Source of the DNA: an uncultured Pelagibacteraceae bacterium
GTDB lineage: Bacteria > Pseudomonadota > Alphaproteobacteria > Pelagibacterales > Pelagibacteraceae
Length of the DNA stretch: 64,000 bases
Direction of reading: 5' to 3'
Assembly (NCBI GenBank): GCA_902563575.1
Contig: CACEXV010000001.1
Span: 62,001 to 126,000, forward strand
The notes beneath the pieces were generated by a model. That model was given only the letters and a program-made list of their open reading frames with translations, was not told the origin of the DNA and did not search any database. A program made the position numbers and the translations under genes. Below, one piece after another: positions 1 through 15,112 of the stretch. Numbering within the stretch: position 1 is the stretch's first letter; every line of letters begins with the position of its first letter.

Positions 1-1
1 C

Positions 2-1054
2 ATACTTGCTGATTTTAAACAATCAGATATACATTTGTGTATGGCTGACATGGGCTGGATGGTTGGATCTAAATCAGCAACCATTGCCTCTTTGCATGGT
101 GCCCAAATGGTAATTGCTGAGGGTGTGCCAGATTTTCCTGATGAAATCAGGTTTTGGAAACTTATTGCAAAATATAAAGTTTCATGGACAGAATTATCTC
201 CTGCGTTGATAAGAAATCAAATGATCAAAGACAAAAAACTTTTTGAAAATTTAGATTTAAGTTCATTAAGAATTATATGTACTGGCGGTGAACCTTGGAC
301 AGAAAAACCTTGGAAATGGTTATTTGAATTTATTGGTAAATCTAAAGTACCGATTATGAATTCGGCTGGAGGAACAGAAGTTTCTGGATCAATTTTGCAC
401 TGTTGCTTGCATAGACCTTTCAAAGTTGGGTCATTCAATGCTCCGATCCCAGGTATGAGTGCTGATATTGTAGACTATAACGGCAAGAAAGTAACTCAAG
501 ATCAATTAGGTGAGTTAGTTATGAGAAAATCTTCAATTGGTCTTACAAAAAGTCTTTGGGAAGATGATAAAAGATATTTAGAAAATTATTGGAAAGTTAT
601 AAATGGCATATGGGTGCATGGCGATCTTGCAAGTAAAGATAAAGATGGTCATTGGTATCTACACGGAAGATCTGATGACACTATAAAAGTTTCTGGAAAA
701 AGAATAGGACCCTCAGAGATAGAGAGCGTAGTTGTGAAAAGTGGAAAAGCAAAAGAAGTTGCTGCAGTTGGAATACCAGATGAAAATAAAGGATCTAAAA
801 TCATTCTCTCGATTGTGCCATTAGAAAGTGAAAAAAACCTTAAAGAGAGTCTCTTTATTGATTTAATAACTAAAGATTTAGGAAAATCCTTTAAACCTGA
901 TAGAGTAATTTTTTTAAAAGATTTACCTAAGACTAGAAATATGAAAATAATGAGAAGAGTTATTAAGTCTTGTTTAATAAAAGAGGACCCTGGTGATATC
1001 TCAACTTTATTGAATCCAGAGTCTGTTGAGGAGATAAAAGAATATGCAATTTAA
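2..1054 (+). CDS. AMP-dependent acyl-CoA ligase, 5' end outside window
   Basis: C-terminal part of an adenylate-forming acid:CoA ligase of the acetyl-CoA synthetase type. The frame is open to the left edge, where ADMGWMVG matches the aDiGWi.G block of this family, so the true start lies upstream. Also visible are a GGT-E motif (SAGGTEVSG, the position of the YGxTE adenylate motif), W-x-HGD-L-A-x-D-x-DG, the hinge GRSDDTIKVSGKRIGPSEIE, and a late lysine-bearing tail (PKTRNMKIMRR) that fits the catalytic-lysine A10 motif. It would convert a carboxylic acid to its CoA thioester with ATP, in the cytoplasm. It overlaps the next gene by 11 nt, so it heads or continues an operon with a crotonase. 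The acid substrate is not predictable. Family certain, specificity unknown. Confidence 0.88.
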   Translation: MLADFKQSDIHLCMADMGWMVGSKSATIASLHGAQMVIAEGVPDFPDEIRFWKLIAKYKVSWTELSPALIRNQMIKDKKLFENLDLSSLRIICTGGEPWTEKPWKWLFEFIGKSKVPIMNSAGGTEVSGSILHCCLHRPFKVGSFNAPIPGMSADIVDYNGKKVTQDQLGELVMRKSSIGLTKSLWEDDKRYLENYWKVINGIWVHGDLASKDKDGHWYLHGRSDDTIKVSGKRIGPSEIESVVVKSGKAKEVAAVGIPDENKGSKIILSIVPLESEKNLKESLFIDLITKDLGKSFKPDRVIFLKDLPKTRNMKIMRRVIKSCLIKEDPGDISTLLNPESVEEIKEYAI

Positions 1055-1814
1055 AGATATACTTTATGAAGTTAAAGGTGATTATGCCTCTGTCACTATA
1101 AATAGACCTAAAGTATTAAATGCTTTTACGCCATTAACTCTTCAAGAACTTAAGACAGCTCTTGACGCTGCAGAAAAAGATAAAGAAGTTGGAGTAATAG
1201 TTTTATCAGGTGCAGGAGATAGAGCATTTTGTTCAGGTGGAGATATGAATTGGGAAAGCTCTAAAGAATTTCAAGATCATGAATATGAATTTCACATTCA
1301 CTTAACAAAATGCAGTAAACCAATCATAGCTAAAGTTGATGGATACGCGATTGGTGGTGGAAATCATATGGCTTATTTTTGTGATTTAACTATAGCAAGT
1401 GAGAATTCTATATTTGGACAAAATGGTCCCCGAGTTGGTTCTCCTGCGGGAGGAGCTATCGTTGCCCATTCTGCTAATATTTTAGGACATAAACGTGCAA
1501 GAGAGATGTGGATGACTTGTAAAAGGTACTCAGCAAAAGAGATGATGAATTGGGGCTTGGTAAATTCAGTAGTAAAAAAAGATAAATTAGACGAGGAAGT
1601 TAAAAAGTATGGCGATGAAATATTAAAAGCTGCACCAACTTGTTTAAAGATATTAAAGGCTAGTTTTCGAAAACAGTTTGAAGAAATTTTAAAAATTACA
1701 CAAAAAGGTATGGTCGAGGAAGTAGCTCCAGATTATTTCAAAACTGGAGAGCAGGCCGAAGGTGCTAAGGCCTTCCTAGAAAAAAGGAAGCCAAATTTCA
1801 AAAAATTTAGATAA
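1044..1814 (+). CDS. Crotonase-fold acyl-CoA hydratase/hydrolase, MenB/BadI-like
   Basis: A 256-residue enoyl-CoA hydratase/isomerase superfamily protein. The first oxyanion-hole segment (AFCSGGDMN) and the second (AIGGGNHMA) are present. The FGQNGPRVGS block and the GHKRAREMWMTCKRYSAKE block resemble naphthoyl-CoA synthase (MenB) and 2-ketocyclohexanecarboxyl-CoA hydrolase (BadI) more than ordinary enoyl-CoA hydratases. MenB closes and BadI opens a ring through a CoA-thioester Dieckmann-type reaction. No menaquinone genes are nearby, so a catabolic BadI-like role on the product of the preceding CoA ligase is the better inference. The ATG at 1044 overlaps the ligase stop region, and the stop overlaps the next start by one base (TAATG), which indicates translational coupling. 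The precise reaction is uncertain. Confidence 0.85.
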   Translation: MQFKDILYEVKGDYASVTINRPKVLNAFTPLTLQELKTALDAAEKDKEVGVIVLSGAGDRAFCSGGDMNWESSKEFQDHEYEFHIHLTKCSKPIIAKVDGYAIGGGNHMAYFCDLTIASENSIFGQNGPRVGSPAGGAIVAHSANILGHKRAREMWMTCKRYSAKEMMNWGLVNSVVKKDKLDEEVKKYGDEILKAAPTCLKILKASFRKQFEEILKITQKGMVEEVAPDYFKTGEQAEGAKAFLEKRKPNFKKFR

Positions 1815-2902
1815 TGAAAATAAAGTCAATCAAAGCAATTACTTTGGGTATGCCATTTAGCCATGGTGGAAAAAAAGTTATTTTTCACGGTAAAGAATGG
1901 AAAAGATTAGAGTTTAATTTGGTTAAAATTGAAACAGACAAAGGTATCACTGGTTGGGGTGAAGCCTTTGGTTATACGAGTTGGAAGGCTGTAAAAATTG
2001 CAATTGAAGACATGGTGGCTCCCCTACTCATCGGCAAAGATATCATTAATATTCCGGATCTTCTTTTATCCCTTCAAAAATCTTTACATTTATTTGGAAG
2101 ATACGGCATTACAATGTTTGCAATATCTGGTGTTGAAATTGCATTGTGGGATGCTTTAGGAAAAGAAAAAAACAAGCCAATTCATGAATTATTAGGAAAA
2201 AAAAATAAAGATTTGTTTAAAGCTTACTCTAGTCTTTTTAGATACGGAGATCCAAAGATTGTTGAACAAAAATGCAAGCAATCTTTGGATGACGGTTATC
2301 AAGCTATAAAATTACATGAAATAGAAAATGACTGCATAGAAGCTGGAAGAAAAGGAACAGGCAATCTTCCTTTGATGTTAGATACTAATTGTCCTTGGAC
2401 TTATGAAGAAACTCTAGCCAAAAAGGATTTTTTAAAAAGTATGAAACTTACTTGGTTAGAGGAACCTATTTATCCACCGGAGGATTATGAAACTCTTTCA
2501 AAATTAAATAAAAATCTTGGTATACCATTAGCATGTGGGGAAAATGCTTGTACAGAATTTGAATTTAAATCAATAATCAAACAAAAAGCAGTCACTTTTG
2601 TTCAGCCGTCAGTAATTAAAGTTGGTGGCATCTATGAAATGTTTAAAATTATTCAGTATGCAGAAAAAAATAATATTTCTGTAATGCCTCATACTGCTTA
2701 CTTTGGACCAGGTTTTTTAGCTACTCTACAATTGGCGGCTTTAATGGAAAAAGAAACTTATATTGAAAGATTTTATTTAGATATTGAACAAGAGTTTTAT
2801 CCAAATTTTAAAAGAGCACTGAATGGGAAGTATAAATTACCTTCAGGACCAGGGCTTGGTATTGATTTAGATTATAATAAATTAAGTAAATATGAGATAT
2901 AG
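1814..2902 (+). CDS. Mandelate racemase/muconate lactonizing (enolase superfamily) enzyme
   Basis: A 362-residue enolase-superfamily protein: N-terminal capping domain with ITGWGEAFG, then a TIM barrel. Metal ligands are recognisable as D190 (LMLDTN), E216 (WLEEP) and E243 (ACGEN). The second-strand acid/base motif reads K166-L-H168, where many members have KxK. The late His is H293 (VMPHTAY). The Asp that usually pairs with that His (QPD) is replaced: the text reads QPSVIKVGG, S266. Members abstract the alpha proton of a carboxylate and dehydrate, epimerise or cycloisomerise it, often sugar acids. It overlaps the crotonase by 1 nt and the lyase by 11 nt. Family is sure. The altered catalytic residue makes substrate and reaction unassignable. 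Confidence 0.87.
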   Translation: MKIKSIKAITLGMPFSHGGKKVIFHGKEWKRLEFNLVKIETDKGITGWGEAFGYTSWKAVKIAIEDMVAPLLIGKDIINIPDLLLSLQKSLHLFGRYGITMFAISGVEIALWDALGKEKNKPIHELLGKKNKDLFKAYSSLFRYGDPKIVEQKCKQSLDDGYQAIKLHEIENDCIEAGRKGTGNLPLMLDTNCPWTYEETLAKKDFLKSMKLTWLEEPIYPPEDYETLSKLNKNLGIPLACGENACTEFEFKSIIKQKAVTFVQPSVIKVGGIYEMFKIIQYAEKNNISVMPHTAYFGPGFLATLQLAALMEKETYIERFYLDIEQEFYPNFKRALNGKYKLPSGPGLGIDLDYNKLSKYEI

Positions 2903-3545
2903 ATCTGTTTTATTCGTTCCAGGGCATGAAGAAAAAAAGATTAAAAAGGCATATACATTAAATGCAGATTTAATAGTTATTGATTTAGAGGCCACCGTTC
3001 CCAAAGATCAGAAAGAACAAGCAAAAAAAATAATTAGAGAATGTAATGTTAATAAAGATCAAACATATATAAGAATAAATTCTAATTCAGACTTAGAATT
3101 TGTCACTACAGAAAGATTTCCTGGAATATTTCTTCCATTTACAGAAACAAAAAAGCAATTAATCGAAATAGATACATTGTTAAAAAAAAATGAAAAGCTA
3201 AAGACTAATGTAATACCAATATTGGAAAGTATAAACGGACTAGCTAATCTTGAGGAAATTTGTTCTTTTTCAGAAAGAATTCAAATTATATCTTTCGGTT
3301 CTCATGATTTAGCAAAATCAATAAATCTTAAAATTTCAGAAGACGAAAAAGAAATACTAGAATTTAGAAAAAATATCGTGAATAAATCAAAAAATATTCA
3401 AAAACCAATTGATACCTCTTATTTGAATTTTAAAGATTTAAATGGATTTGAGGTTTCATGTAATTTAGTAAAAAAATTAGGTTTTGGTGGTAAAGCATGT
3501 ATTCATCCAAATCAAATTGATATATCAAACAAATTATTTACATGA
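2892..3545 (+). CDS. CitE-like HpcH/HpaI-family aldolase/lyase
   Basis: A 217-residue protein starting RSVLFVPGH, the hallmark of CitE-like lyases. VIDLEATVP corresponds to the DLEDAV motif. The Mg-binding Glu is in PILESINGL and the Asp in FGSHDLAKS. The terminal KACIHPNQID motif is conserved in the family. At 217 residues it is shorter than typical CitE or malyl-CoA lyase (about 270-310). Family members cleave or form CoA-linked or free 3-hydroxy-acids (citramalyl-CoA, malyl-CoA, 2-oxo-3-deoxy acids), giving pyruvate, acetyl-CoA or glyoxylate. In this operon it is a good candidate for the C-C cleavage step. It overlaps both neighbours (11 nt upstream, 4 nt downstream). Confidence 0.83.
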   Translation: MRYRSVLFVPGHEEKKIKKAYTLNADLIVIDLEATVPKDQKEQAKKIIRECNVNKDQTYIRINSNSDLEFVTTERFPGIFLPFTETKKQLIEIDTLLKKNEKLKTNVIPILESINGLANLEEICSFSERIQIISFGSHDLAKSINLKISEDEKEILEFRKNIVNKSKNIQKPIDTSYLNFKDLNGFEVSCNLVKKLGFGGKACIHPNQIDISNKLFT

Positions 3546-4582
3546 AGAAAAAAATAAAAATAGCAGTTGTTGGTATTGGACTGATGGGCAGTCAACATTT
3601 AAAGGCAGTTAATCTTTCTAAAAAGGCTAAATTACACTCTATTGTTGATTTAAATAAAAAATCAGAGGTACATGCTAAAAAATTTAAAGTTCCATTCTAT
3701 AGTTCATCAAAACATTTATTAAAAAATAATAAGCCTGATGCGGTTATCGTGGCAACTCCAAATCAATTTCACGAAAAACACACTATAAGTTTTTTAAATG
3801 CCAAAATTCCAGTTTTATTAGAGAAACCTATTTCAGATAATATCAAGAAAGCTGAAAAAATAATTAAAAGTTCAAAAAAAAATAAAACCCACTTATTAAT
3901 TGGTTATCATAGAAGACACAATTCAATTGTAACAAGCGTAAAGCAAAAAATCGACTCTGGTAAATTTGGAAAAATTGTTGCGGGAAATGTAATGTGTTGG
4001 CTTTATAAAAACAAAGACTGGTATAAAGAAAAATGGAGAATAAAAAAAGGTGGTGGTCCTTTAGGGATAAATTTAGTTCATGATATTGATCTTATTTGCT
4101 ATCTTTTAGGGCCTGTTCAATCTGTACAATCTGCAACATCAAATTTAATAAGAAAGTATGAGGTTGAAGATACAGCTGTCGTTAATTTTATTTTTAAATC
4201 AGGTGCACTATGTACACTAAGTGTTTCTGACACCATAGTTGGTCCTTGGAGTTATGAATTAACTGCTGGTGAAAACCCTGCATACCCTGTTACTAATCAA
4301 TCGGCTTATTATATTGGAGGAACCAAAGGCTCCATTCAGTTTCCGAATCTAAAACACTGGTATAATAAAGGTGAACGTAGTTGGTGGAAACCAATGTATC
4401 ACAAAGATATGAATATCAGATTAAGCCGTTTTACACTAATTAATCAAATCAATCATTTGTGTGATGTTGTAAAAGGAAAAGCAAAACCGAAAGTGACAGG
4501 TGAAGATGGTTTACAGTCTTTAAAAATATTTGATGCGATAATCAAAAGTTCAAAATCAGGAAAAAAAATCAGTATTAAATGA
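3542..4582 (+). CDS. Gfo/Idh/MocA-family NAD(P)-dependent oxidoreductase
   Basis: A 346-residue two-domain dehydrogenase. The N-terminal Rossmann fold has KIAVVGIGLMGSQH (GxGxxG), VATPNQFH and the family LEKPIS motif, whose Lys is catalytic. The C-terminal half has GGGPLGINLVHDIDLI, which supplies the usual Asp/His catalytic pair. This pattern resembles myo-inositol 2-dehydrogenase-type enzymes that oxidise a ring or sugar hydroxyl. It overlaps the CitE-like gene by 4 nt (ATGA) and the next oxidoreductase by 4 nt. The two paralogues in a row suggest two successive redox steps, or a heteromer, on a hydroxylated or cyclic substrate. Specificity is not inferable. Confidence 0.88.
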   Translation: MKKKIKIAVVGIGLMGSQHLKAVNLSKKAKLHSIVDLNKKSEVHAKKFKVPFYSSSKHLLKNNKPDAVIVATPNQFHEKHTISFLNAKIPVLLEKPISDNIKKAEKIIKSSKKNKTHLLIGYHRRHNSIVTSVKQKIDSGKFGKIVAGNVMCWLYKNKDWYKEKWRIKKGGGPLGINLVHDIDLICYLLGPVQSVQSATSNLIRKYEVEDTAVVNFIFKSGALCTLSVSDTIVGPWSYELTAGENPAYPVTNQSAYYIGGTKGSIQFPNLKHWYNKGERSWWKPMYHKDMNIRLSRFTLINQINHLCDVVKGKAKPKVTGEDGLQSLKIFDAIIKSSKSGKKISIK

Positions 4583-5487
4583 TTCAAGCTTGTGTAATAG
4601 GTTTATCAAAAATTGGTCAAATACACTGTAAAAATTTAATAAAAATTAAAAAAACTCAATTGACATATATTTATGACAAAAATCAAAAGCTCTGTAAAAA
4701 ATATTCTAAAAAATTTAAATGCCAAACTTCAAACAATTTCAATAAAATTTTAAATCAAACAAACATAGATTTATTTGTAATAGCTTCACCGACTACTACG
4801 CATGAATTTTATATAAAAAAATTAATAAAACATAAAAAAATTATTTACTGTGAAAAACCAATTACCGGAAAACACAGAAACTTAAAGAAAATAGAGAATT
4901 TAATTAGGAGTAATAATATAAAATTTTGTGTGGGCCTTAATAGACGTTTTTCAAAAGAGTACGTTTCTTTAAAGAAAAAAACAAAAGGTAAAAAAATTAA
5001 AATTATTCAAATTATCTCAAGATCTGCAAATCACAATGTTAATTTATCAGTGAGAAATGGAGGTTTATTTTATGATAAAGGTTTTCATTTTTTTGACCTT
5101 GCGTGTTGGTTGGGTAATTCCTTGCCTAAAAAAATGATTGTAATTTCAAAATCAATAAGCACTGAAGAGTTTTTAAAAAAAGGTGATTTTTCTGATGCTG
5201 TAATCAATATGCGATTGAGGAATAATATAAATGTTGAATTAGTATTTAGTAGAAAGTGCAGATTAGGCAATATAGAGAAAATAAAGATTTTTGGAGAAAA
5301 ATTTATTTTAAATTCAGATGATTATTCGAACAAAAAAACTTTGAGTAAGGACTTTGCAATTAGACATAAAGACTCTTATTTTAAGTGTCTAAATAATTTT
5401 ATTAATTCAAAAAAATCTTTATTATTCGAAGAAGGTATCAATGTTCAAAATATTTGTGAGCAAGCTTCGAAAATAGCTAAAAGATAA
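4579..5487 (+). CDS. Second Gfo/Idh/MocA-family oxidoreductase, divergent and shorter
   Basis: A 302-residue paralogue of the preceding dehydrogenase: N-terminal GLSKIGQIH nucleotide-binding turn, VIASPTTTHE, YCEKPIT and NRRFSKEY, then GGLFYDKGFHFFDLACWLG in the place of the catalytic Asp/His helix. It is shorter than its neighbour and very Lys/Asn/Ile-rich. The GxGxxG loop is degenerate (GLSKIG), so cofactor affinity may differ. It is the last gene of the plus-strand operon and ends 3 nt before the convergent SDR gene. It probably acts in the same pathway as gene 3542-4582. Substrate unknown. Confidence 0.82.
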   Translation: MIQACVIGLSKIGQIHCKNLIKIKKTQLTYIYDKNQKLCKKYSKKFKCQTSNNFNKILNQTNIDLFVIASPTTTHEFYIKKLIKHKKIIYCEKPITGKHRNLKKIENLIRSNNIKFCVGLNRRFSKEYVSLKKKTKGKKIKIIQIISRSANHNVNLSVRNGGLFYDKGFHFFDLACWLGNSLPKKMIVISKSISTEEFLKKGDFSDAVINMRLRNNINVELVFSRKCRLGNIEKIKIFGEKFILNSDDYSNKKTLSKDFAIRHKDSYFKCLNNFINSKKSLLFEEGINVQNICEQASKIAKR

Positions 5488-5490
5488 TAA

Positions 5491-6243
5491 TTAATTTAAA
5501 CTCTTAATTTTTCCACCATCGATAGATAGAACTTTACCATTAGATTTTTTATCTTTTATTAATTTCAATGTAAGCTTTGCGACTTCTTCCGGTTTTGTGG
5601 GTCTTTTGATTTTGGCTAACTTAGTTCTTTCTTTTAAAAGTTGTTTCACGCTTTTTTTTAAAATCTTTGAGTCTGCTTTAAGTAACTTTTCTAATCGTCC
5701 AGTAAGGGTCATTCCTGGATTAATTATAGATACTGAAACTTTATCCAACTTACCTTGTAGTGATAAAGTTTTGGTAAAATGATTTAAAGCTGTGTTTACT
5801 GCTCCGCCAATCATAAATGTTCTTGATGGTTTTTCCCATGACCCTGCACCTCCGCCAATATTAATTATCTTTCCTCTATTTTTTTTTAATTTGGGCCAAA
5901 AAATTTTACTTAACCTTAAAGCAGATTTAAATTTTAAATCAAAACCATCATTCCATGTTTTATCATCAAGTTTGAGAAAATGACCTCCTTTAGTTGCGCC
6001 AGCAACATTGATTAAGTAATTAATTTTTTTTACTTTTTTTCCAACAAAATTGCATGCGGATAAAGATCTTAAATCTTTAGATATAATGTGTGATAATTTT
6101 GGATAAGGTAAATTCTGCTGTACTCTCTTTAAAAGTTTTTTTGATCTCGCGATTAAAATTACTTTAATTTTTTTTTTATTTAAATCTTTTGCAATAGAGG
6201 AGCCGATGCCTTTGCTAGATCCTGTTATGACCGCAACCTTCAT
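5491..6243 (-). CDS. SDR-fold protein lacking the Ser-Tyr-Lys catalytic residues
   Basis: A 250-residue short-chain dehydrogenase/reductase fold. TGSSKGIG (residues 8-15) is the NAD(P) glycine motif, INVAG (78-82) stands for NNAG, and the C-terminal IDGGK is typical. Aligned on GKIINI and ALNHFTKTL, the catalytic Ser falls on G130/G131, the Tyr on G146 and the Lys on N150, so the YxxxK motif is absent. The protein probably binds a dinucleotide but cannot use the standard SDR mechanism. It may be regulatory, structural or chemically different. Its ATG shares one base with the stop of the upstream hydratase gene, so they are co-translated. It converges with the oxidoreductase operon. Confidence 0.82.
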   Translation of the reverse strand: MKVAVITGSSKGIGSSIAKDLNKKKIKVILIARSKKLLKRVQQNLPYPKLSHIISKDLRSLSACNFVGKKVKKINYLINVAGATKGGHFLKLDDKTWNDGFDLKFKSALRLSKIFWPKLKKNRGKIINIGGGAGSWEKPSRTFMIGGAVNTALNHFTKTLSLQGKLDKVSVSIINPGMTLTGRLEKLLKADSKILKKSVKQLLKERTKLAKIKRPTKPEEVAKLTLKLIKDKKSNGKVLSIDGGKIKSLN

Positions 6244-7013
6244 TAAATAAAATCGACGTTGATTTTTCCTAAAGTTCTAAAATCTACCTTAAGCTTATCT
6301 CCTTTATTTACTTTAAAAGGTTGTATAACTGAACCAGTCATAAACCAATCTCCCTTTTTAAAAGTTACAGGATTATCTTTAAATTCATTAATTATACATT
6401 TAATTGCTTCTACCGGACCAGCTCTTTTTTCACCTTTAAAGTAAGGTTCTGTTACTTCACCGTTTAAGTTAATTTCAACTTGAATAGAATCCAAATTAAT
6501 TTTATCGCGATTTTTTATTTTATCTCCAATTACTATCGCTCCAGCTCCACCATTGTCAGCTATATTTAAATTCATCATATTTATTGGATCCAAATCTTTT
6601 TTGCTTTCTGAATGAACTCTTGTAGATACTAATTCTAATGCTATATACGCTTCATAATTACCAGTTTTATATTCTGCGCCAGGTATCATTTTCGTGTCCT
6701 CTAAAAATTTTAAACAAAATTCACATTCAAGAATACAATCTGGAACTTTACTGTAATCTACTTTAAGTGGATTCATTAAAACTGTTTCATCTATGATTTT
6801 ACCTATCATCGGGCCGTTGACTTTAGCTCCTTCTTGTAAATTTTTTGAAACCAGACCAATTTTCCAACCAACTGTTTTTTTCTTTAAAACATCATGAAAT
6901 TGTTTTTGAATGTTGTGAGACTCCTCTCTGCTCTTCGGTAATTCTTCAGAATTAATTTTGATTAAATCTCTTTTTTTCCATGCATCTACTAATTTTTCTG
7001 CTAAAGTATTCAT
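6243..7013 (-). CDS. 2-keto-4-pentenoate hydratase-like (MhpD/FAH superfamily)
   Basis: A 256-residue protein of the fumarylacetoacetate hydrolase superfamily, closest in pattern to 2-oxopent-4-enoate hydratase / 4-oxalocrotonate decarboxylase. VGWKIGLVSK, the GPMIGKI segment, the metal-binding E-x-E of ILECEFCLKF and the later ALELVSTR, and a C-terminal KGDWFMTGSVIQPF block match MhpD-type enzymes. Such enzymes hydrate 2-hydroxy-2,4-dienoates to 4-hydroxy-2-oxo acids, the natural substrates for a pyruvate-releasing aldolase such as the CitE/HpcH-like product nearby. The gene is divergent from the DUF1907 gene, with 17 nt between the ATGs, and is coupled to the downstream SDR gene. Exact substrate unknown. 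Confidence 0.85.
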   Translation of the reverse strand: MNTLAEKLVDAWKKRDLIKINSEELPKSREESHNIQKQFHDVLKKKTVGWKIGLVSKNLQEGAKVNGPMIGKIIDETVLMNPLKVDYSKVPDCILECEFCLKFLEDTKMIPGAEYKTGNYEAYIALELVSTRVHSESKKDLDPINMMNLNIADNGGAGAIVIGDKIKNRDKINLDSIQVEINLNGEVTEPYFKGEKRAGPVEAIKCIINEFKDNPVTFKKGDWFMTGSVIQPFKVNKGDKLKVDFRTLGKINVDFI

Positions 7014-7030
7014 TATCTATAAATAATCAC

Positions 7031-7999
7031 ATGATGCTCACATTTGAAAGTGCAAAATTTAATAATCCTTCGCTAGAGATTTTAGCAGAAGCTCTAAAAA
7101 AGGGTTTAAAAGCCAATTATCAAGAAGTTACGGTCGAAATAATTAACTGTCCAAATCTTAGAGAATGGAACTGCCCGTCTGAAGGAATTTCAGGTAACGA
7201 GAGAATTATTGATGTAGGTGGAGAGCCTTATATGCACGATAAGCAGTTTATTGGAACTGAATTTGACTACGAAGAAATCGCAAAAAATATTGGATCCGAA
7301 AAATCTTATGCTCTAGGTGCAGGTTCTGGCGCAATGTCATGTTTGGAGGGTCATTGTGGTGAACTAATTATTAATGAAAATTTGATTACAAACGAGTCAA
7401 ATTCAATTATTGCACAGGTAAATAAAAATAAAGAGTGTGTAACAAAAAAGTATACTGAAAAAAAACATGGTGGCTTGGCTAATATTTTTTTTTCAGATGG
7501 CAAAATCGGGAAAGTAATTAAAATAAAATTAAAGAAAAGAATAGGTAAACAAGGGTCTCTACCTCAAGCAATGCGGTCCGCTTTGTTAGAAAATATTATT
7601 ATCCAAAAAAATAGACATGTTGCGTTGGGAGGAGTTTTTAGAGTTTTACATGGAGGGGTTAAATCCCATGTTCAACCAGATTATGAAGATATTAAACATG
7701 AATATTATGATTCTAAGCTTATGAAATGTACTAAAGATTTTTTACAGTTTTATGAACCTGTTGGACCAAAATTGCAATGTTACTCAGTTTTATGGACTGG
7801 GGATCCAACAGGAGGAGATCTCAATTTAAGAGAGTCAGGTGAACATACGCATTTTCACTCTTACAATAATAAGCCAGAAGCTGGACACTACCATTTCGAT
7901 GTAACACCAAATGATATTGAATATGAATGTTATTTTAATATTGCTCACGAAGTATTTAGGGTTAATAATATTTATAAAGAATTGAAAAAACCAAAATAA
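7031..7999 (+). CDS. DUF1907 / C11orf54-like putative zinc-dependent ester hydrolase
   Basis: I recognise this as a bacterial member of DUF1907, the family of human C11orf54 (PTD012), a zinc protein with reported ester hydrolase activity. Matching features are the N-terminal NPSLEILAEALKKGL, the VGGEPYM segment, an ALGAGSG loop, and the C-terminal EHTHFHSYNN plus GHYHFDVTP. In the human protein the equivalent HTH and GHYHYD supply the three zinc histidines; here they would be H272, H274 and H286. I place the start at the ATG at 7031 because it gives the family N-terminus; a longer reading from 6980 would run into the divergent gene. Length 322 versus about 315 in the human protein. The biological substrate is unknown. 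Here it could hydrolyse a lactone or ester in the cluster's pathway (inference). Confidence 0.85.
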   Translation: MMLTFESAKFNNPSLEILAEALKKGLKANYQEVTVEIINCPNLREWNCPSEGISGNERIIDVGGEPYMHDKQFIGTEFDYEEIAKNIGSEKSYALGAGSGAMSCLEGHCGELIINENLITNESNSIIAQVNKNKECVTKKYTEKKHGGLANIFFSDGKIGKVIKIKLKKRIGKQGSLPQAMRSALLENIIIQKNRHVALGGVFRVLHGGVKSHVQPDYEDIKHEYYDSKLMKCTKDFLQFYEPVGPKLQCYSVLWTGDPTGGDLNLRESGEHTHFHSYNNKPEAGHYHFDVTPNDIEYECYFNIAHEVFRVNNIYKELKKPK

Positions 8000-8016
8000 T
8001 TTGATTTAATATTTTA

Positions 8017-8829
8017 ATGAAAAATATTTACACTTGGTCTGCAAAACCAGCTAAAAGATCAATCACTGTTGGTGACTTAATTTTTCAGAAAGGAAAAAAA
8101 AAATTTACCCAAGTAACTGCTAACACTGCTTTAGAGGCAAAAGCTGCTGAACAAGCTGGTTTCGACATGATAATTGGAAGCGCAAGTAATGTTAAAAAAG
8201 TAAGAGAAGGATCAAAAACTTTATTTTTTACGGCAGCTTTAGAATTACATAATTATCCTACTCAAGAAGATGTGCTTCGCGGTGCATTTAAGGCGTTAGA
8301 AAATGGAGCTGATGCTGTAATGACTGCGAGAAGTATGGATGTGGTAAGTATGTTGGCAAAAGAGGATGTTCCAGTGATGGGTCATTTAGGATTAGTTCCT
8401 AGAAAGTCAACCTGGATTGGGGGTTTAAGAGCTGTTGGAAAAACCGCTAATGAAGCTTTTGAACTTTTTAAAAAATTTAAAAGATTAGAAGATGCTGGCG
8501 CTTTCAGTGCTGAATGTGAAGTTATCCCAGAAAATGTGATGAATGAAATTTCTAAAAGAACAAGTATTACCACTGTTTCACTTGGATCTGGAAAAGGCGC
8601 GGATGTAATGTATCTATTTATGGAAGATATTTGTGGTGAAAACGAAAAATTACCTAGACATTCGAAAGCATTTACAAACTTAAGAAAGCTCAGAGAAAAT
8701 ATTGAAATAGAGAGGGTTAAAGCTTTAAAATTATTTATAAAAGACAGTATAGAAGGAAAATTTCCTACAAAAGAAAATTCAGTAAATGTTGATGAAAATG
8801 TATTAAAAGAATTTTTGAGTAAGATTTAA
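8017..8829 (+). CDS. Divergent PanB-superfamily (PEP mutase-like barrel) protein
   Basis: A 270-residue protein with the ketopantoate hydroxymethyltransferase layout: GHLGLVP (122-128), GGLRAVGKT, a LEDAGAFSAECEVIP stretch carrying the conserved Glu, and a terminal LPRHSKAF matching the PanB HIPKFAKNF block. The residues that bind Mg and ketopantoate in true PanB are not kept: the GDS motif reads GSA (54-56, Asp replaced by Ser), the second Asp aligns with A74, and the Lys/Glu pair aligns with VMTARS. It is therefore probably not a pantothenate enzyme and may catalyse another aldol or retro-aldol or C-C/C-P cleavage on a 2-oxo acid. It lies 17 nt after the DUF1907 gene on the same strand and is likely co-transcribed. 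Confidence 0.8.
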   Translation: MKNIYTWSAKPAKRSITVGDLIFQKGKKKFTQVTANTALEAKAAEQAGFDMIIGSASNVKKVREGSKTLFFTAALELHNYPTQEDVLRGAFKALENGADAVMTARSMDVVSMLAKEDVPVMGHLGLVPRKSTWIGGLRAVGKTANEAFELFKKFKRLEDAGAFSAECEVIPENVMNEISKRTSITTVSLGSGKGADVMYLFMEDICGENEKLPRHSKAFTNLRKLRENIEIERVKALKLFIKDSIEGKFPTKENSVNVDENVLKEFLSKI

Positions 8830-9065: not shown

Positions 9066-9911
9066 ATGGAAATTGTCACAAAAATAGCTCCAATTTGTCT
9101 TGCAATAATTATGTTTGGTTTAGGTCTGGGCTTAACGGTTCAAGATTTCACAAGAGTGTTAAAAAATCCTAGAGATTTTTTTGTAGGTTTTATATGTCAA
9201 GTTATTTTACTCCCAATAATTGCTTTTATACTGATTAATGTTTTATCACTTACGCCAGAAATTGCTTTGGGAGTGATGGTGATAGCCGCAGCGCCAGGAG
9301 GAGTAACCTCAAATATTCTTACAAAGTTTGCAGATGGAGACGTTGCCCTATCTGTAAGTTTAACAGCTATTGTAAGTTTATTAAGTATTTTTATAGTGCC
9401 ATTGATAGTATTTAACTCTGCTGAATTTTTAGGAATTGAAACAGCAAAAAATATATCAATTCTAATTATAGCGTTAAAGATGTTCTGTGTAGTAACTGTT
9501 CCTGTTGTTTTTGGAATGATTGTCAGAACTTTAATGACAGATTTTATTGTTTCCAAAACTCTTATAATACAAAGGCTATCAGTTATTTTATTTTTAATCG
9601 TATTTATTGCAATTTGGGTAGAGGAATGGGATAGGATTGTTTCTTATATTACAAGAGCGGGTTTAGTAGCTTTTATTTTAAATATGACAATGATTTTCGT
9701 AGGATATTACGTTGCTAAATTTTTTACATCGGGCATTGCACAAAGAAAGTGTATTTCATTGGAGTGCGGCTTACAAAATGGAACTTTGGCAGTGTTTGTC
9801 ACTACACAATTATTTGATGATATTGTCTTTATGGTGCCAACAGCTGCCTATGCGTTAATTATGTTTTGTACCTCTATCATTTTTGTCCTAATAGTAAGAA
9901 AAATCAGCTAG
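9066..9911 (+). CDS. BASS-family (bile acid:sodium symporter-like) membrane transporter
   Basis: A 281-residue hydrophobic protein with about nine membrane helices. It begins IMFGLGLGLTVQDF, the typical BASS opening (MxxxGl.l....F), and contains the family loop AAAPGGVTSNILTKFADGDVALS plus a late ECGLQNGTLA motif. These two broken-helix motifs form the sodium and substrate site in structurally known members. Family members import organic anions (bile acids, pyruvate, pantoate, 2-oxo acids) with sodium. It is followed at 56 nt by a small membrane protein and a homocysteine methyltransferase on the same strand, so it may bring in an organic acid or sulfur metabolite, but the substrate is open. 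Confidence 0.88.
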   Translation: MEIVTKIAPICLAIIMFGLGLGLTVQDFTRVLKNPRDFFVGFICQVILLPIIAFILINVLSLTPEIALGVMVIAAAPGGVTSNILTKFADGDVALSVSLTAIVSLLSIFIVPLIVFNSAEFLGIETAKNISILIIALKMFCVVTVPVVFGMIVRTLMTDFIVSKTLIIQRLSVILFLIVFIAIWVEEWDRIVSYITRAGLVAFILNMTMIFVGYYVAKFFTSGIAQRKCISLECGLQNGTLAVFVTTQLFDDIVFMVPTAAYALIMFCTSIIFVLIVRKIS

Positions 9912-9967
9912 ATTATCTAAAAATAGTGTTTATTATTTATGTTTAATATCGTACAGTAAAATTATTA

Positions 9968-10156
9968 ATGATAACACTTACTAATTTATTACTTTTTTTA
10001 ATATTGGTGACATTAGCCACATACACATTTATGCCATGGAAAGGGATAGATAAAGGGTCTTTAACAAAAGTTGCATCACAGTGGTTTATGTGGTTTTTTA
10101 TTTTTGGTGCTATAATTTTGACCTTAATATTATTTGGATTAACTATTTCTGGATAA
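9968..10156 (+). CDS. 62-residue small membrane protein, hypothetical
   Basis: A short protein with two predicted membrane helices (about residues 5-22 and 39-58) joined by a basic loop (MPWKGIDKGSLTKVASQW). No domain is recognised. It starts with ATG and lies on the same strand between the BASS transporter and the homocysteine methyltransferase. Its stop sits just before the conserved N-terminal codons of the methyltransferase. The regular amphipathic pattern and position argue that it is real. It could be an accessory subunit of the transporter, but nothing in the sequence proves that. Confidence 0.6.
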   Translation: MITLTNLLLFLILVTLATYTFMPWKGIDKGSLTKVASQWFMWFFIFGAIILTLILFGLTISG

Positions 10157-10193
10157 GAATTTTTTTCATAAAACAAGAATACTTGACGGAGGT

Positions 10194-11042
10194 ATGGGAC
10201 AAGAAATCCTTAATAGAGGAGTTAAACCATACGGAACTATTTGGGGAGCTTCTGCTCTTTTAAATAAGAAATATCATAAAACTGTAATCAAAACTCACCT
10301 GGATTTTATAAAAGCAGGAGCTGATGTAATAGTAACTAACACTTTTGGAAGTAGAAAGAGAAGACTGATAGAAAATAATTTATCTCATAAATACAAATAT
10401 CTTAATCAAATGGCAGGTAAACTCGCGAGAATTGCTGTTAAGAAATCAAAAAGGAAAATTTTAGTTGCTGGAAGTCTTCCCCCTCAGAATTTTACTTATT
10501 TTTCTGATCTCGGAAATGATTTAAAGTTCATTAAGAATGGCTTCAAAAGTCAAGCGGGTCTTTTAAATCCTTTCGTAGATTTTTTTTATTTGGACGTAAT
10601 GTGTAGCTACAAAGAGTGTAAAATCGCCATTGAGTCTATTAAAAAATATAATAAAAAGTTCCTGGTTGGGATACACATAAGAAATAAAGGAAAATTGCCT
10701 TCTGGAGAAAGTCTTATTTCAGTAGTAAAAAAACTTCAAAAATATAATCCATTGGGGTTTGTGGCGTCTTGCGTATCCGTGGAAGATTTACAACATGTCA
10801 TGAAGGATATTTCAAAGATTAAGGCTCCATTCGGATTTAAAATCAATGCTTTTGAGCATATACCTGCAGGTTGGAAACCTGATGCTAATAATCCTAAAAT
10901 TCAACTTGGCAAAAGAAAAGATTTAACTCCAAAACAGTTTTTTAAAGTGTGTAATAAATTTAAAAAAATGGGTGCAAAAATAATCGGTGGATGCTGTGAA
11001 ATAGGCCCTAAACATATAAAATTTTTAAATAAACTAAAGTAA
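10194..11042 (+). CDS. Zinc-type homocysteine S-methyltransferase (BHMT/MmuM family)
   Basis: A homocysteine S-methyltransferase domain protein, 282 residues from the first ATG. Three zinc cysteines are visible: C183 (FVASCVS) and C267-C268 (IIGGCCEIGP). VTNTFGS and the GWKPD block are family features. It would make methionine from homocysteine with betaine, DMSP or S-methylmethionine as donor. The codons just upstream of the first ATG read RILDGG, completing the conserved N-terminal motif RILDGGMGQE, so the real start is probably upstream. However, no ATG, GTG or TTG exists in frame back to the stop at 10140. Only CTG at 10149 or ATA at 10179 is available. The adjacent proXW genes fit a betaine or DMSP to methionine route. 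Confidence 0.85.
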   Translation: MGQEILNRGVKPYGTIWGASALLNKKYHKTVIKTHLDFIKAGADVIVTNTFGSRKRRLIENNLSHKYKYLNQMAGKLARIAVKKSKRKILVAGSLPPQNFTYFSDLGNDLKFIKNGFKSQAGLLNPFVDFFYLDVMCSYKECKIAIESIKKYNKKFLVGIHIRNKGKLPSGESLISVVKKLQKYNPLGFVASCVSVEDLQHVMKDISKIKAPFGFKINAFEHIPAGWKPDANNPKIQLGKRKDLTPKQFFKVCNKFKKMGAKIIGGCCEIGPKHIKFLNKLK

Positions 11043-11933
11043 TTATCTTTTTGCGTTTTTATGCTTCTGTATTCTTCGAGCATAATTTTGTGAAATCCTG
11101 TCAAAAATAATTGCCAAAGCCACGATGGCTAATCCATTCATCAACCCTAAAGCAAGAAATTGATTGGAGATGGATCTTAAGATTGGAACACCTAAACCAC
11201 TCACACCTATCATTGAGGCTATGACAACCATTGCTAGCGCCATCATAATTGTTTGATTTACTCCAGTCATTATTGAGGGTAATGCTAATGGAATCTCAAT
11301 TTTAAAAAGTATTACTCTTTTTTTTATTCCAAGAGCTTTTGCCGCCTCAACAAATCTCTTATCAACTTCTCTTATTCCTAAATTTGTTAATCTAACAATC
11401 GGTGGAATTGCATAGACACATACTGCTAATAATCCAGGAACTTTACCAATACCTAAAAGCATTATGATGGGAATTAAATATACAAATGTAGGTATAGTTT
11501 GCATCATATCTAAAACTGGAGATAAAATATTTGTCAATCTCTGAGATCTAGCCATTAAAATTCCTATTGGGGCACCCAAGATTAAACAAATTAAAGTTGC
11601 TACGGATATTATTGCCATTGTGGACATTGTGTCTTTCCACATTCCAAAATATCCAATTAAAAAAAAGCTAATTGCAGTTCCAATAGAGAGTTTGATACTT
11701 CTTGAACTTAACCACGCTAAGAATGATAATAATATTATAATTAGAGGCCAGGGTGTTGTAATTAAAAATTTTTCAAACCAAACCAGAAATTTTAATAGAG
11801 GACCGAAAAAGCCCTCAATAGAGTCTCCATACTCTCGAGAAAAATCTTTAAAAGTAAGGTCTATACCTTTTTTTAAATCCCTCAAATTTTCCCTCTCCAT
11901 GGAGGGAAAATTTAAGAAGAATTCGAGTTGCAT
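11043..11933 (-). CDS. proW: Glycine betaine/choline-type ABC transporter permease
   Basis: A 296-residue inner-membrane permease of the ProW/OpuAB type. Several helices are followed by the EAA loop (EVDKRFVEAAKALGIKKRVILFKIEIPLALP region), and segments such as MMQTIPTFVYLIPIIMLLGIG are diagnostic of quaternary-amine permeases. An N-terminal cytoplasmic extension precedes the first helix. The gene follows the binding-protein gene with a 17-nt gap. No ATP-binding subunit (proV) is next to it; the gene directly downstream is convergent. The complex must borrow an ATPase encoded elsewhere, or proV has moved. Likely substrates are glycine betaine, choline or DMSP (inference from family). Confidence 0.93.
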   Translation of the reverse strand: MQLEFFLNFPSMERENLRDLKKGIDLTFKDFSREYGDSIEGFFGPLLKFLVWFEKFLITTPWPLIIILLSFLAWLSSRSIKLSIGTAISFFLIGYFGMWKDTMSTMAIISVATLICLILGAPIGILMARSQRLTNILSPVLDMMQTIPTFVYLIPIIMLLGIGKVPGLLAVCVYAIPPIVRLTNLGIREVDKRFVEAAKALGIKKRVILFKIEIPLALPSIMTGVNQTIMMALAMVVIASMIGVSGLGVPILRSISNQFLALGLMNGLAIVALAIIFDRISQNYARRIQKHKNAKR

Positions 11934-11950
11934 TTAAACAGTTATTTAAT

Positions 11951-12955
11951 TTAAATTCCTGCTTTAATTTTTTTTGCGACTGATGACGAAACCCATTTAG
12001 ACCAAACTTTTTCGTGTTTTTTCATGAATTCCATCGCCGCATCTTCACCTTCAGCTTGGTTGTCGGTCATGTAAACCAACATTGAATTCATCACATTCCC
12101 CGGATAAATTCTTTTTTTCATGTATTTCATGGCATCAGGTCCAGCAGACTTTTTAAAGTTATCAGTTACAACTGAGTAAACTTCAGAGTCCACCCATCGA
12201 GTTTTTTTTGGTGTTGCGCACTCTTGTTCCGGTTTTACCACACACTTGTGCCAATTATCATCGCCTCCCCATTTAACTCCAAAATCCAAAAGTTTCATAT
12301 CATACTTTCCGATTATTGCAGTAGGGCTCCAATAATATCCAACCCAATTATCACCTCTCTCTACCGCTTTAGCTATTGAACCATCAAGTCCTGCAGCTGA
12401 TCCTGGGTCAACTAATTTCCAACCTTTAGCTTCCATTTCAAAAGCTTTAAAAAGTTGATTATTAATTAATTGACATCCCCAACCAGCGGGACATCCAACA
12501 AATGCTCCTTTGCTTTTATCTTCAGGATGCGGGAACAAGTCAGGTCTTTTTAACAAGTCTTGAACAGTTTTAATCCCGTGTTTTTCCATTGTATAAGGTG
12601 GTACGAACCAACCTTCTCCAAGTCCTGTAATTGGACCTTTGTTAACAATGTGAATTCTGCCCTCTCCAACAGCTTTCTTTAACGGACTCATAACTGAGTT
12701 TGCCCATAACTCAGGCGCAACATCAGGCTGACCTTTTTCATTCATAGAGGTGAAAGAAGGCATTGTATCGCCAGGTAATAACTCTACCTCACAACCAAAA
12801 CCTTTCTCTAGAATTATTTTGTCAATATTTGCCATCAAAGATGCCGAGGCCCAATTCATATTCGCATATGTAATTTTTCCGCAAGCAGCATTCGCAGCAG
12901 TTTGTGTAAATAAAGCCATTGATATAATGGCTAAAAGTTTTATTAATGATCTCAT
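11951..12955 (-). CDS. proX: Glycine betaine/choline-type periplasmic binding protein
   Basis: Substrate-binding protein of the ProX/OpuAC family, 334 residues. I start it at the ATG at 12955, preceded by AGAGGGGG, because it gives a clean signal peptide (MRSLIKLLAIISMALF...ANA, cleavage before ACGK). A longer frame to 13117 lacks these features. Tryptophan and aromatic residues that would make the cation-pi box are present (MNWASA, GEGWFVPPY, GYYWSPTA). It captures quaternary amines in the periplasm for the downstream permease. The 136 nt upstream contain no gene and presumably its promoter, separating it from zur. Confidence 0.93.
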   Translation of the reverse strand: MRSLIKLLAIISMALFTQTAANAACGKITYANMNWASASLMANIDKIILEKGFGCEVELLPGDTMPSFTSMNEKGQPDVAPELWANSVMSPLKKAVGEGRIHIVNKGPITGLGEGWFVPPYTMEKHGIKTVQDLLKRPDLFPHPEDKSKGAFVGCPAGWGCQLINNQLFKAFEMEAKGWKLVDPGSAAGLDGSIAKAVERGDNWVGYYWSPTAIIGKYDMKLLDFGVKWGGDDNWHKCVVKPEQECATPKKTRWVDSEVYSVVTDNFKKSAGPDAMKYMKKRIYPGNVMNSMLVYMTDNQAEGEDAAMEFMKKHEKVWSKWVSSSVAKKIKAGI

Positions 12956-13091
12956 TTTAACCCCCTCTAGAGTTGTTAATTTATAAGTGATGATAACAAA
13001 ATGTAGTATGTAATGTAACCGTATTACAACTAAAAAGTGAAATATAGAATATATGCCAGTTAAACTTTTTTTATAGCTTATATGGATACAA

Positions 13092-13493
13092 TTACTTGCA
13101 TTTTTTACATAATCCAAAAAATTCTAAATTAAATTTTTTGAATTTCATTCCTTTTTTATCATTATAGCTTGATAAATATTTTGAAAGGCTCTTGTCACTA
13201 ATTTCATCCACTTTTTCACAACTTTCACAAATTGAAAATGCGGTAGCCTTAGAAATTTCACAATTTGAGCTTCTGCAAGCAACAAATGCATTTTTGCTCT
13301 CAATTTTATGAATTTTTCCAATTTCAATTAATTTGTCTAAAGCTCTATATATTTGCGGGGGCGCCTTAATACCTTTTTTTTGAACATTAAATAAAATAGA
13401 ATAAGCCTTTAGAGGACCTTTCGCTTTTTCAATTATGTCCAGAACAATCTGCTGATTTTTAGAGAGATTATTTTCTTTGAGCATTCGAGTCAT
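13092..13493 (-). CDS. zur: Fur-family zinc uptake regulator
   Basis: A 133-residue Fur-superfamily repressor. The N-terminal winged helix includes APPQIYRALDKL as recognition helix. The dimerisation half carries two CxxC pairs (CESCEK and the C-terminal CKKCK), the structural zinc site of this family. The position after znuB on the same strand (15 nt after its stop) identifies it as Zur rather than Fur. With zinc bound it should repress the divergent znuCB(zur)/znuA promoters through the palindromes at 15080-15112. Because it is co-transcribed with znuCB it would be autoregulated. Confidence 0.9.
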   Translation of the reverse strand: MTRMLKENNLSKNQQIVLDIIEKAKGPLKAYSILFNVQKKGIKAPPQIYRALDKLIEIGKIHKIESKNAFVACRSSNCEISKATAFSICESCEKVDEISDKSLSKYLSSYNDKKGMKFKKFNLEFFGLCKKCK

Positions 13494-13508
13494 TATACAG
13501 TTTCCTCT

Positions 13509-14312
13509 TTAATTTTTCAATTTAATCGATTGTTTAATTTTTAATAGTGAAAGTATGAATAAAAATAAAGCAGCAGCTATAATTGATGGCCCTGATGATG
13601 TATTAAATTCTAACGAAACAAACAAACCTAACATTACTGATAACAAACCTCCAAGTATTGAGTAAATTACCATGCTCTGTGGACTTGAGGAAACATTTCT
13701 AGCCATTGCTGCAGGTATAATTAACATTCCTGTAATTAACAATAAACCCACCATTTTAATTGAAATAGCAATAACCCCAGCCATTAAAATTGTGAAAATA
13801 GCTTTAGCTCTATCAGGTTTTAAACCTTCGGCCTCTGCTAATTCATAATTTACCGTTGATGCAAATAAAGATTTCCAAATTAGTTTAAGAATTAATAATA
13901 TTAATGGTCCCCCAATCCCTATAATTAATAAATCATCAATGGTAACTGCTAATATATCTCCAAATAATAATCCCATAATATCGAATCTTATAAATGACAA
14001 AAAACCAATAACGACTAGACCAATTGCTAAAGATGAATGGGCCAGAAGTCCTAACAAGGCATCACCCGGAAGATTTGTCCTTTTTTGAAGATCAATAAGA
14101 ATTAATGCAATAAAAGATGAAATTATAAATACTGACAGAGCAATATTGAATTCTAAGGAATAGGCAAGTGTAACACCGAGTAAGGCTGAATGAGCAAGTG
14201 TATCGCCGAAATATGATAATCGTCTCCATATAATAAAACACCCTAGAGGTCCTGTTACAATGGCAATGCCAAGTCCAGCTACTAAAGCTCTTATAAAAAA
14301 ATCATCAAACAT
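13509..14312 (-). CDS. znuB: Zinc ABC transporter permease
   Basis: A 267-residue polytopic membrane protein of the ABC-3 metal permease family. It opens FIRALVAGLGIAIVTGPLGCFIIWRRLSYFGDTLAHSALLG, including the conserved GD-x-LAHS motif, and later has AEAEGLKP and a series of helices. It forms the zinc channel with ZnuC. It abuts znuC (ATG one base after its stop) and is followed by zur. Assignment to zinc rather than manganese rests on the Zur gene and the Zur-type operators. Confidence 0.93.
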   Translation of the reverse strand: MFDDFFIRALVAGLGIAIVTGPLGCFIIWRRLSYFGDTLAHSALLGVTLAYSLEFNIALSVFIISSFIALILIDLQKRTNLPGDALLGLLAHSSLAIGLVVIGFLSFIRFDIMGLLFGDILAVTIDDLLIIGIGGPLILLILKLIWKSLFASTVNYELAEAEGLKPDRAKAIFTILMAGVIAISIKMVGLLLITGMLIIPAAMARNVSSSPQSMVIYSILGGLLSVMLGLFVSLEFNTSSGPSIIAAALFLFILSLLKIKQSIKLKN

Positions 14313-15059: not shown

Positions 15060-15079
15060 TTTATTACTTGACTTTTAAA

Positions 15080-15094
15080 TGTTATATTATTACA
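15080..15094. promoter_or_regulatory. Zur-box-like palindrome, imperfect copy
   Basis: TGTTATATTATTACA is a one-mismatch version of the perfect palindrome 18 nt downstream. It lies between znuC and znuA and nearer znuC, so it may be the znuC-proximal operator. The TGTTAT-N3-ATAACA pattern resembles alphaproteobacterial Zur sites. Confidence 0.7.
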
Positions 15095-15097
15095 TAG

Positions 15098-15112
15098 TGT
15101 TATATTATAACA
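15098..15112. promoter_or_regulatory. Zur box, perfect 7-1-7 palindrome
   Basis: TGTTATATTATAACA is a perfect inverted repeat of seven bases around a central T, 19 nt upstream of the znuA ATG. With the copy at 15080 it gives two sites with centres 18 nt apart in the shared znuC/znuA promoter region. Regulation by the zur product nearby is the natural inference. Confidence 0.8.

Follow-up and report, generated by a model that had tools for sequence, protein, structure and literature searches.

The window analysed here is a stretch of 64,000 nucleotides (G000:C1:62001-126000) from the genome of an uncultured Pelagibacteraceae bacterium (SAR11), which is 970 kb long and 84% complete. Its first 8,829 positions carry ten open reading frames that a preliminary description had regarded as a catabolic cluster matching no known pathway. 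All ten are present, and each one belongs to the family named there (Table 1). The six plus-strand genes overlap each other by 11, 1, 11, 4 and 4 bases in order, sdr and mhpD overlap by a single base, and 17 bases separate d1907 from panB. The genes are real, but ten is too small a number on the left side, and the window starts inside the ligase gene. The complete acs gene codes for 638 amino acids (L003:9138-11054), with about 860 bases outside the window, and the cluster begins 7-9 kb to the left of the window edge (sequence L003). To the left of acs, the plus strand carries a PanE-like gene, livH and livF, while livK (L003:5127-6383), livM, livG, a PhyH oxygenase and an EamA transporter are encoded on the minus strand. 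The left-side LivK (Peripla_BP_6), PhyH, PanE/ApbA and ligase proteins were run against Pfam; livF, livG, livH and livM were named by eye and by likeness to the annotated branched-chain transporter genes of a plasmid, and the EamA assignment was made by eye. Counting the part to the left of the window, the island comprises approximately 16-21 genes.

Table 1. Genes of the island within the window (positions of the window) and loci of the mle paralogue.
Feature	Position	Strand	Family or type	Remarks
acs	1..1054	+	acyl-CoA (coenzyme A) ligase, acetate/acetoacetate-CoA ligase type, C-terminal part	AMP-binding
ech	1044..1814	+	crotonase (ECH_1), clade related to BadI and MenB	VGSPAGG loop
mle	1814..2902	+	enolase superfamily (MR_MLE, MR-type), acid dehydratase or cycloisomerase	KxH, DxN, EEP, GEN, QPS and MPH motifs
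citE	2892..3545	+	short CoA-ester-lyase-type protein, HpcH_HpaI (CitE-type)	217 amino acids
gfo1	3542..4582	+	GFO_IDH_MocA dehydrogenase	
gfo2	4579..5487	+	second GFO_IDH_MocA dehydrogenase	nearest inositol 2-dehydrogenases, under their cut-off
sdr	5491..6243	-	short-chain dehydrogenase (SDR)	
mhpD-like (mhpD)	6243..7013	-	2-oxo-alkenoate hydratase family (HpaH/MhpD type)	
d1907	7031..7999	+	DUF1907 protein, homologue of human C11orf54	alternative start 6980
panB-like (panB)	8017..8829	+	PanB-superfamily protein	Pantoate_transf
mle paralogue	L054:8269-15629; L055:9986-18116			

The conservation of the island was followed through loci that were retrieved from GTDB, one genome per species, with exact mle peptides. 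This method reaches close relatives only; it gave 66 loci, all of them labelled SAR11 in their titles, at which the presence of mle is given and is not a result. Flanks of 6.5 kb or more to the left of mle and 0.7 kb or more to its right were available at 51 loci, and 50 of these kept the order livF-livH-panE-acs-ech-mle-citE. The sole exception (L114:1-12591) has the same genes, with the panE-livH-livF-livK segment inverted relative to the 50 others. Among the 51 loci with 6.5 kb of right flank, gfo1 was found in all, a third Gfo gene (gfo3) in 36, gfo2 in 35, a GGACT-type gene in 27, mhpD and d1907 in 14 each, sdr in 4 and panB in 1. The left flanks of L221, L223 and L225 were also compared for these optional genes. 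The sdr-mhpD-d1907-panB block stands at the right end in the window and in L063, and at the left end, adjoining EamA, in L221 and L223 of the same genus; in L223 a small gene separates d1907 and panB. In a g2 genome, panB lies at the EamA end (L225), and mhpD and d1907 lie at the right end of the cluster (L053). The window CitE is 66-90% identical to 19 other SAR11 copies, and an mle search of a 297-genome sample of the order (E ≤ 1e-60) gave 18 matches, all within the family of the window. Recurrent clustering across Pelagibacterales, which the preliminary description had proposed as its own test, was thereby confirmed within one family of the order; a fixed arrangement of ten genes was not, since the block changes place. 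Some loci have peculiarities of their own: L113:1-18531 has two matches each for livG and livK, suggesting partial duplication of the transporter genes, and in L063 (6968-8122) a 384-amino-acid protein without a Pfam match, probably secreted as judged by eye, sits between ech and mle. Signs of decay are a single in-frame stop in the G139 ligase (G139:C6:14636-16351) and a split mhpD in G001 (L233:9268-10027).

The joint presence of the genes was assessed in 147 genomes of the family, with cut-offs of E ≤ 1e-150 for the ligase, E ≤ 1e-40 for mhpD and E ≤ 1e-60 for d1907 and panB. The ligase was detected in 27 genomes, mhpD in 33, d1907 in 32 and panB in 30; the 28 genomes with mle (identity of at least 86%) include two with partial copies. 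In the 27 genomes with acs, mhpD was present in 25, d1907 in 25 and panB in 23, against 8, 7 and 7, respectively, in the 120 genomes without it. Within the genus of the window, the 11 genomes with acs had mhpD in 10, d1907 in 10 and panB in 9, and each of the three was found in none of the 18 genomes without acs. The Fisher p-values over the 147 genomes were 9e-20 (d1907), 4e-19 (mhpD) and 6e-17 (panB), and within the genus 5e-7, 5e-7 and 5e-6, respectively; they serve as a guide only, because shared descent is uncorrected and many genomes are incomplete. Co-inheritance beyond chance was thus found in the relatives, and the earlier view of the genes as one unit holds in that they recur together across SAR11, nearly all-or-none within the genus of the window.

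The ligase scored 467 bits with the AcsA model (cut-off 725) and 251 bits with the acetoacetate-CoA ligase model (cut-off 521), below both. The crotonase is 45-47% identical to BadI/MenB, and 46-47% to two annotated BadI proteins, one of them in an aliA/aliB operon, and scored 249.7 bits against BadI (cut-off 467.6) and 235.9 bits against MenB (cut-off 342.7). An alignment was made of a MenB from a men operon, the two annotated BadI proteins, four SAR11 proteins and eight non-SAR11 relatives. In the VGSPAGG loop of the window protein, Ala replaces the Asp of the BadI (GSVDPG) and MenB (GSFDGG) loops; this Asp is absent from all four SAR11 crotonases and from all eight other relatives, of which six have VGSPA and two VAYPT. 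Since the Asp of the GSxD loop is missing, the crotonase represents a separate clade. Membership of BadI or MenB was rejected on the sub-cut-off scores and the missing Asp, and the BadI-like ring-opener proposed at first, with about half of the BadI cut-off score and without the residue shared by two BadI and one MenB, could not be retained. The partner genes of BadI in alicyclic acid (ali-bad) degradation also differ from those in the window. In Leisingera, a relative of the crotonase occurs with an acetoacetate-CoA ligase (855 bits, cut-off 521) and an MhpD-like gene, each only 24% identical to its counterpart in the window, and SDR genes were seen by eye near the crotonase relative in L134 and L135. 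A ligase of 41-42% identity adjoins a crotonase of 48% identity carrying the BadI-type loop in L162 and L163. In L162 (8229-17614) this pair, with the 41% ligase, stands beside hydantoinase A/B-type (acetone-carboxylase-like) genes; such neighbours suggest that a ketone is carboxylated and then activated with CoA and cleaved.

The AlphaFold model of CitE (predicted local distance difference test score, pLDDT, 87) matched malyl-CoA lyase 5ugr best (Z 26.9, root-mean-square deviation 2.0 over 213 residues), followed by the acyl-/citramalyl-CoA lyases 9nzb (Z 26.3) and 8khl (Z 26.0, deviation 2.0 over 207). As in the known CitE-type CoA-ester lyases (malyl-CoA lyase, citramalyl-CoA lyase, CLYBL, RipC), the predicted fold aligns over residues 1-217 (Z 23.9-26.9), but their C-terminal segment after the barrel, which we take to be the active-site lid, is absent. 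The window protein ends where the match to 5ugr reaches residue 269 of a 323-residue chain. The 77 complete SAR11 matches found by tblastn are 213-220 amino acids long (some genomes were counted twice), and 4 more run off their contigs. HpaI-type aldolases were not among the 50 matches listed for the CitE model, which is no evidence against relatedness. Because the fold is that of CitE/malyl-CoA lyases, the enzyme is more likely to cleave a CoA ester than a free 4-hydroxy-2-oxo acid; the HpcH/CitE-type lyase of the preliminary description therefore stands as to its fold and is less probable as to the cleavage assigned to it.

In the enolase-superfamily protein, the metal-binding acids D190, E216 and E243 are invariant in 17 SAR11 copies and align with D, E and E of 5olc and 3bjs; the single-residue G229 row of the alignment was disregarded. 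The second Lys of the KxK motif is His, and of the His-Asp dyad H293 is kept, with QPS in place of QPD. The two SAR11 paralogues and four plasmid relatives in the alignment share both QPS and KxH. The structure model was poor (pLDDT 67.8) and was not used. A SAR11 paralogue of 60% identity in L054 and L055 is accompanied by tripartite ATP-independent periplasmic (TRAP)-type transporter genes (by eye) and an NAD epimerase-type dehydrogenase. The families were tested in L055, which also has an HpaI-type aldolase; the dehydrogenase there has its best NCBIfam match in Azf-type glucose-6-phosphate dehydrogenase (114 bits, under the cut-off of 400) and may be a uronate dehydrogenase. These two loci look like a non-phosphorylating sugar-acid route. 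The uronate and aldarate routes of this kind combine a dehydrogenase, an enolase-superfamily enzyme and an HpaI aldolase; the paralogue is found in that company, possibly in L055, whereas the partner of mle in the window is CitE-type and stands beside CoA chemistry. A SAR11 'tarD', possibly of the same enolase-superfamily type as mle, is mentioned in one report (PMC12636525).

The Gfo proteins scored best against inositol 2-dehydrogenase IolG, with 140 (gfo1) and 159.5 bits (gfo2), well under the cut-off of 355. Relatives of gfo1 (42% identity) in Shinella and Sinorhizobium adjoin shikimate dehydrogenase, aroQ, hpaH and hpaI. A gfo1 relative and an hpaH-type gene lie about 8 kb apart in at least 10 Sinorhizobium records, and Shinella also has an hpaH-type gene, among the plasmid matches listed (12 of 168 records for gfo1 and 15 of 128 for mhpD). 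The rhizobial cluster of Gfo, shikimate dehydrogenase, aroQ, intradiol, hpaH and hpaI genes differs from the SAR11 island, since just two types among the eight genes tested, Gfo and hpaH, had a match in the SAR11 stretch. The PanE-like protein reached 247.9 bits against TIGR00745 (ApbA/PanE; cut-off 141.35) and the cut-off of no more specific model listed; its best PDB match is 3wfi, presumably a D-mandelate dehydrogenase.

The d1907 product is a clear DUF1907 protein (PF08925, 207.5 bits, cut-off 25), and its only PDB match at E ≤ 0.001 is human PTD012/C11orf54 (1xcr, E = 3e-41). The HTH and GHYH histidines are kept in all six SAR11 proteins aligned and in human PTD012. The family is rare in the class: among 181 sampled genomes only that of the window contains it, none of 14 control genomes does, and 72,556 plasmid records gave no match (E ≤ 1e-10). 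According to a 2025 commentary, Malatesta et al. showed that human C11orf54 is a beta-keto-L-gulonate (3-dehydro-L-gulonate) decarboxylase; its structure is related to acetolactate decarboxylase, and three conserved His residues, given without numbers, bind zinc (PMC12435205). The assignment is repeated in another source (PMC12921845). By analogy, the window protein may be a beta-keto-acid decarboxylase, although it differs from the human one in being bacterial and in belonging to a catabolic cluster.

The mhpD product matched an HpaH/MhpD-type NCBIfam model (E = 1.7e-24) and no Pfam family at E ≤ 0.001. The panB product belongs to Pantoate_transf (128.5 bits, cut-off 28.7) and falls short of the curated PanB model (98.3 bits, cut-off 207.55). 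In an alignment of five SAR11 proteins and one from Bradyrhizobium, residues D45, D84, K112 and E114 of Escherichia coli PanB are missing and E181 is kept; all six have a gap at the D45 column, where the alignment is uncertain. We take D45, D84 and E114 to be metal ligands and K112 to fill the Lys role. Another PanB-family gene elsewhere in the genome scores 290 bits, against 116 for panB, and a PanC gene is also present. Since the residues are missing and a better PanB and a PanC exist elsewhere, the panB product is unlikely to make pantoate, and PanB chemistry, as its first label implied, is not supported.

The PanE-like, DUF1907, PanB-like and PhyH genes also occur in an inositol-type setting in another SAR11 genus. 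In two g4 loci (L228 and L229), d1907, a small protein, panB, panE, a 2-oxoglutarate (2OG) oxygenase and PhyH lie together inside an inositol-type cluster, with identities of 74-76% for PanE and 61-63% for PhyH, and the PanE-like and DUF1907 genes are divergent neighbours. L228 has an iolD gene (802 bits, cut-off 715), to which a 614-amino-acid gene of L229 is similar, and L229 has iolE (409 bits, cut-off 290). Aldehyde dehydrogenase, HpaI-type aldolase, Gfo enzymes and, by eye, sugar ATP-binding cassette (ABC) genes belong to the same cluster. The lower part of this inositol-type cluster may be non-canonical. As the four genes were found in both settings, panE-d1907-panB-PhyH is common to the two clusters. 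The island thus resembles myo-inositol catabolism (IolG/IolE/IolD) in its best-scoring Gfo model and in this module joined to iolD/iolE; unlike that pathway, it has no iolD or iolE match among the ten window proteins. The myo-inositol pathway has no place for a CoA ligase, a crotonase or CitE. A classical inositol pathway in the window was rejected on the low Gfo scores. The suggestion of sugar- or inositol-like chemistry was borne out at the level of the class, by the Gfo enzymes, the enolase-superfamily enzyme, DUF1907 and the inositol-type cluster of other SAR11.

The whole cluster was sought outside SAR11 and was not found. A crotonase search of 386 genomes of the class (E ≤ 1e-75) gave five other genomes with at most 60% identity, and the five stretches, at least two of them ended by contig ends, showed only weak ligase (22%), ABC or second-crotonase matches from the cluster. 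The ligase (385 genomes, E ≤ 1e-140) was matched in 17 other genomes at no more than 43%, and an adjacent crotonase was found in 2 of 18 stretches (L162 and L163). Plasmids were searched with crotonase, mle, ligase, panE, gfo1, panB, mhpD, d1907 and citE; the neighbourhoods opened, which included none for the ligase, panE and citE matches, held no such cluster. The enzyme families are all known, and neither the cluster nor their combination is described in the open-access literature searched; PMC5788505 and PMC6018831 were not relevant to it.

Taken together, these results point, with moderate confidence, to an accessory SAR11 catabolic island for the uptake and breakdown of a single class of carboxylated polyols, either sugar acids or carboxylated cyclitols. 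The inference that the gene set forms one pathway has good support, and the substrate class is suggested by DUF1907, the Gfo enzymes, the inositol-linked module and the gfo1 relatives. In the mechanism proposed, whose order of steps is tentative, the LivGMK/LivFH-type ABC transporter would take up the substrate, whose ring or chain hydroxyls may be oxidised by the Gfo/Idh/MocA, SDR and PanE-like NAD(P)-dependent dehydrogenases. The ligase would activate the acid with CoA, the crotonase may carry out carbon-carbon bond chemistry on the CoA ester, and the CitE-type lyase would cleave a CoA ester. Water may be removed by the enolase-superfamily enzyme and added by the MhpD-like one, and a beta-keto acid would be decarboxylated by DUF1907. 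The panE/DUF1907/panB genes would act as a portable lower module, joined to inositol-type genes in the other genus.

Several observations weigh against this interpretation. The crotonase lacks the loop Asp, the dyad of mle is incomplete and CitE has no C-terminal part; therefore, catalysis by analogy is uncertain for these three enzymes. Transporters of the Liv type and CoA ligases more commonly serve amino acids or aromatic and alicyclic acids than sugars. In 9 of the 10 other acs-positive genomes of the genus, mhpD is represented only by a relative of 37-40% identity, and in the tenth (G135) it has no match. Moreover, the core is not always accompanied by mhpD, d1907, sdr, gfo2 or gfo3, and the genomes with d1907, mhpD or panB and no acs indicate that some members of the set may function in its absence; G111 has all three, no acs and only a fragment of mle. 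The SAR11 loci also share descent and were all found through mle, so that their counts are not independent events.

A more specific and rather doubtful version of the carboxylated-polyol interpretation is a modular system for the degradation of carbocycles. Its lower module would consist of the PanE-like protein, DUF1907, the PanB-like protein without the PanB metal site and PhyH/2OG oxygenases, coupled to different front ends. In one genus the front end would be IolE/IolD, acting on inositols; in the lineage of the window it would be a new CoA-dependent one (Liv-type transporter, Gfo, CoA ligase, third crotonase clade, enolase-superfamily enzyme and lid-less CitE), acting on a carboxylated cyclitol such as an acid resembling quinate or shikimate. 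Such an acid would bring together the CoA ligase/crotonase pair and the cyclitol-type dehydrogenases, although the absence of the Asp from the crotonase argues against simple BadI chemistry.

The mobility of the right-hand block raises the question of whether the island houses two neighbouring pathways, with the liv-panE-acs-ech-mle-citE-gfo core serving one compound and sdr-mhpD-d1907-panB another. This is unlikely, and yet it is the most probable of the alternatives. The block switches between the ends of the cluster, and its genes occur without acs in various combinations: d1907 with mhpD in G061 and G067, d1907 with panB in the g4 genomes G063, G088, G127 and G143, panB alone in G086 and G118, and mhpD alone in G001, G049, G056, G077 and G145. 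The division is contradicted by the lack of all three genes, at the cut-offs used, in every acs-negative genome of the window's own genus, and by panE, a gene of the core that also accompanies d1907 and panB in the inositol-linked version. Slightly less probable is a hexonate/hexuronate route of the animal type, in which an aldonate would be oxidised at C3 by the PanE-like or a Gfo enzyme and decarboxylated to a ketopentose by DUF1907, the other enzymes handling related sugar acids. Human DUF1907 acts in this manner on 3-dehydro-L-gulonate (PMC12435205), the PanE-like and DUF1907 genes of L228 and L229 adjoin each other in divergent orientation, and the nearest mle paralogue is accompanied by an NAD epimerase-type dehydrogenase, to which L055 adds an HpaI-type aldolase. 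Such a route would leave the acetate-type CoA ligase, the crotonase and the CitE-type lyase without use, and no ketopentose kinase was recognised by family among the cluster genes.

A BadI-type alicyclic-acid pathway would take a plain ring acid through CoA ligase, dehydrogenase and ring opening by the crotonase. The identity of the crotonase to the two annotated BadI proteins and the ligase/BadI-type crotonase pairs of L162 and L163 agree with it. We nevertheless regard it as improbable, given the low BadI score and the Asp-to-Ala change; no acyl-CoA dehydrogenase is among the cluster genes listed, and the polyol-type enzymes would go unexplained. That panB and panE serve pantothenate synthesis, and that the cluster as a whole is not catabolic, is scarcely credible: the family names and the PanE-like score above the TIGR00745 cut-off suggest it, but the better-scoring PanB, the PanC and the four missing PanB residues led to its rejection.

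The genes next to the cluster were also noted. To its right (window 9066-13117) lie an SBF-type transporter and a homocysteine S-methyltransferase. The minus strand there carries an osmolyte-type ABC permease and a binding protein, both named by eye. A 42% relative of this methyltransferase is found near the inositol-type cluster of L229. The following segment (13092-16112) carries, by eye, a Fur-like regulator, the permease and ATPase of a zinc-type ABC system, and a binding protein that contains a His/Asp-rich repeat, of the kind expected for zinc uptake.

Summarizing, if the carboxylated-polyol interpretation is true, this large island, carried by some species but missing in others of one genus, would indicate a polyol-acid niche in sea water that has not been described. 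It would also provide assayable hypotheses for several orphan subfamilies, namely the bacterial DUF1907 proteins, the crotonase clade beside BadI and MenB, the PanB relative without the metal site and the short CitE.

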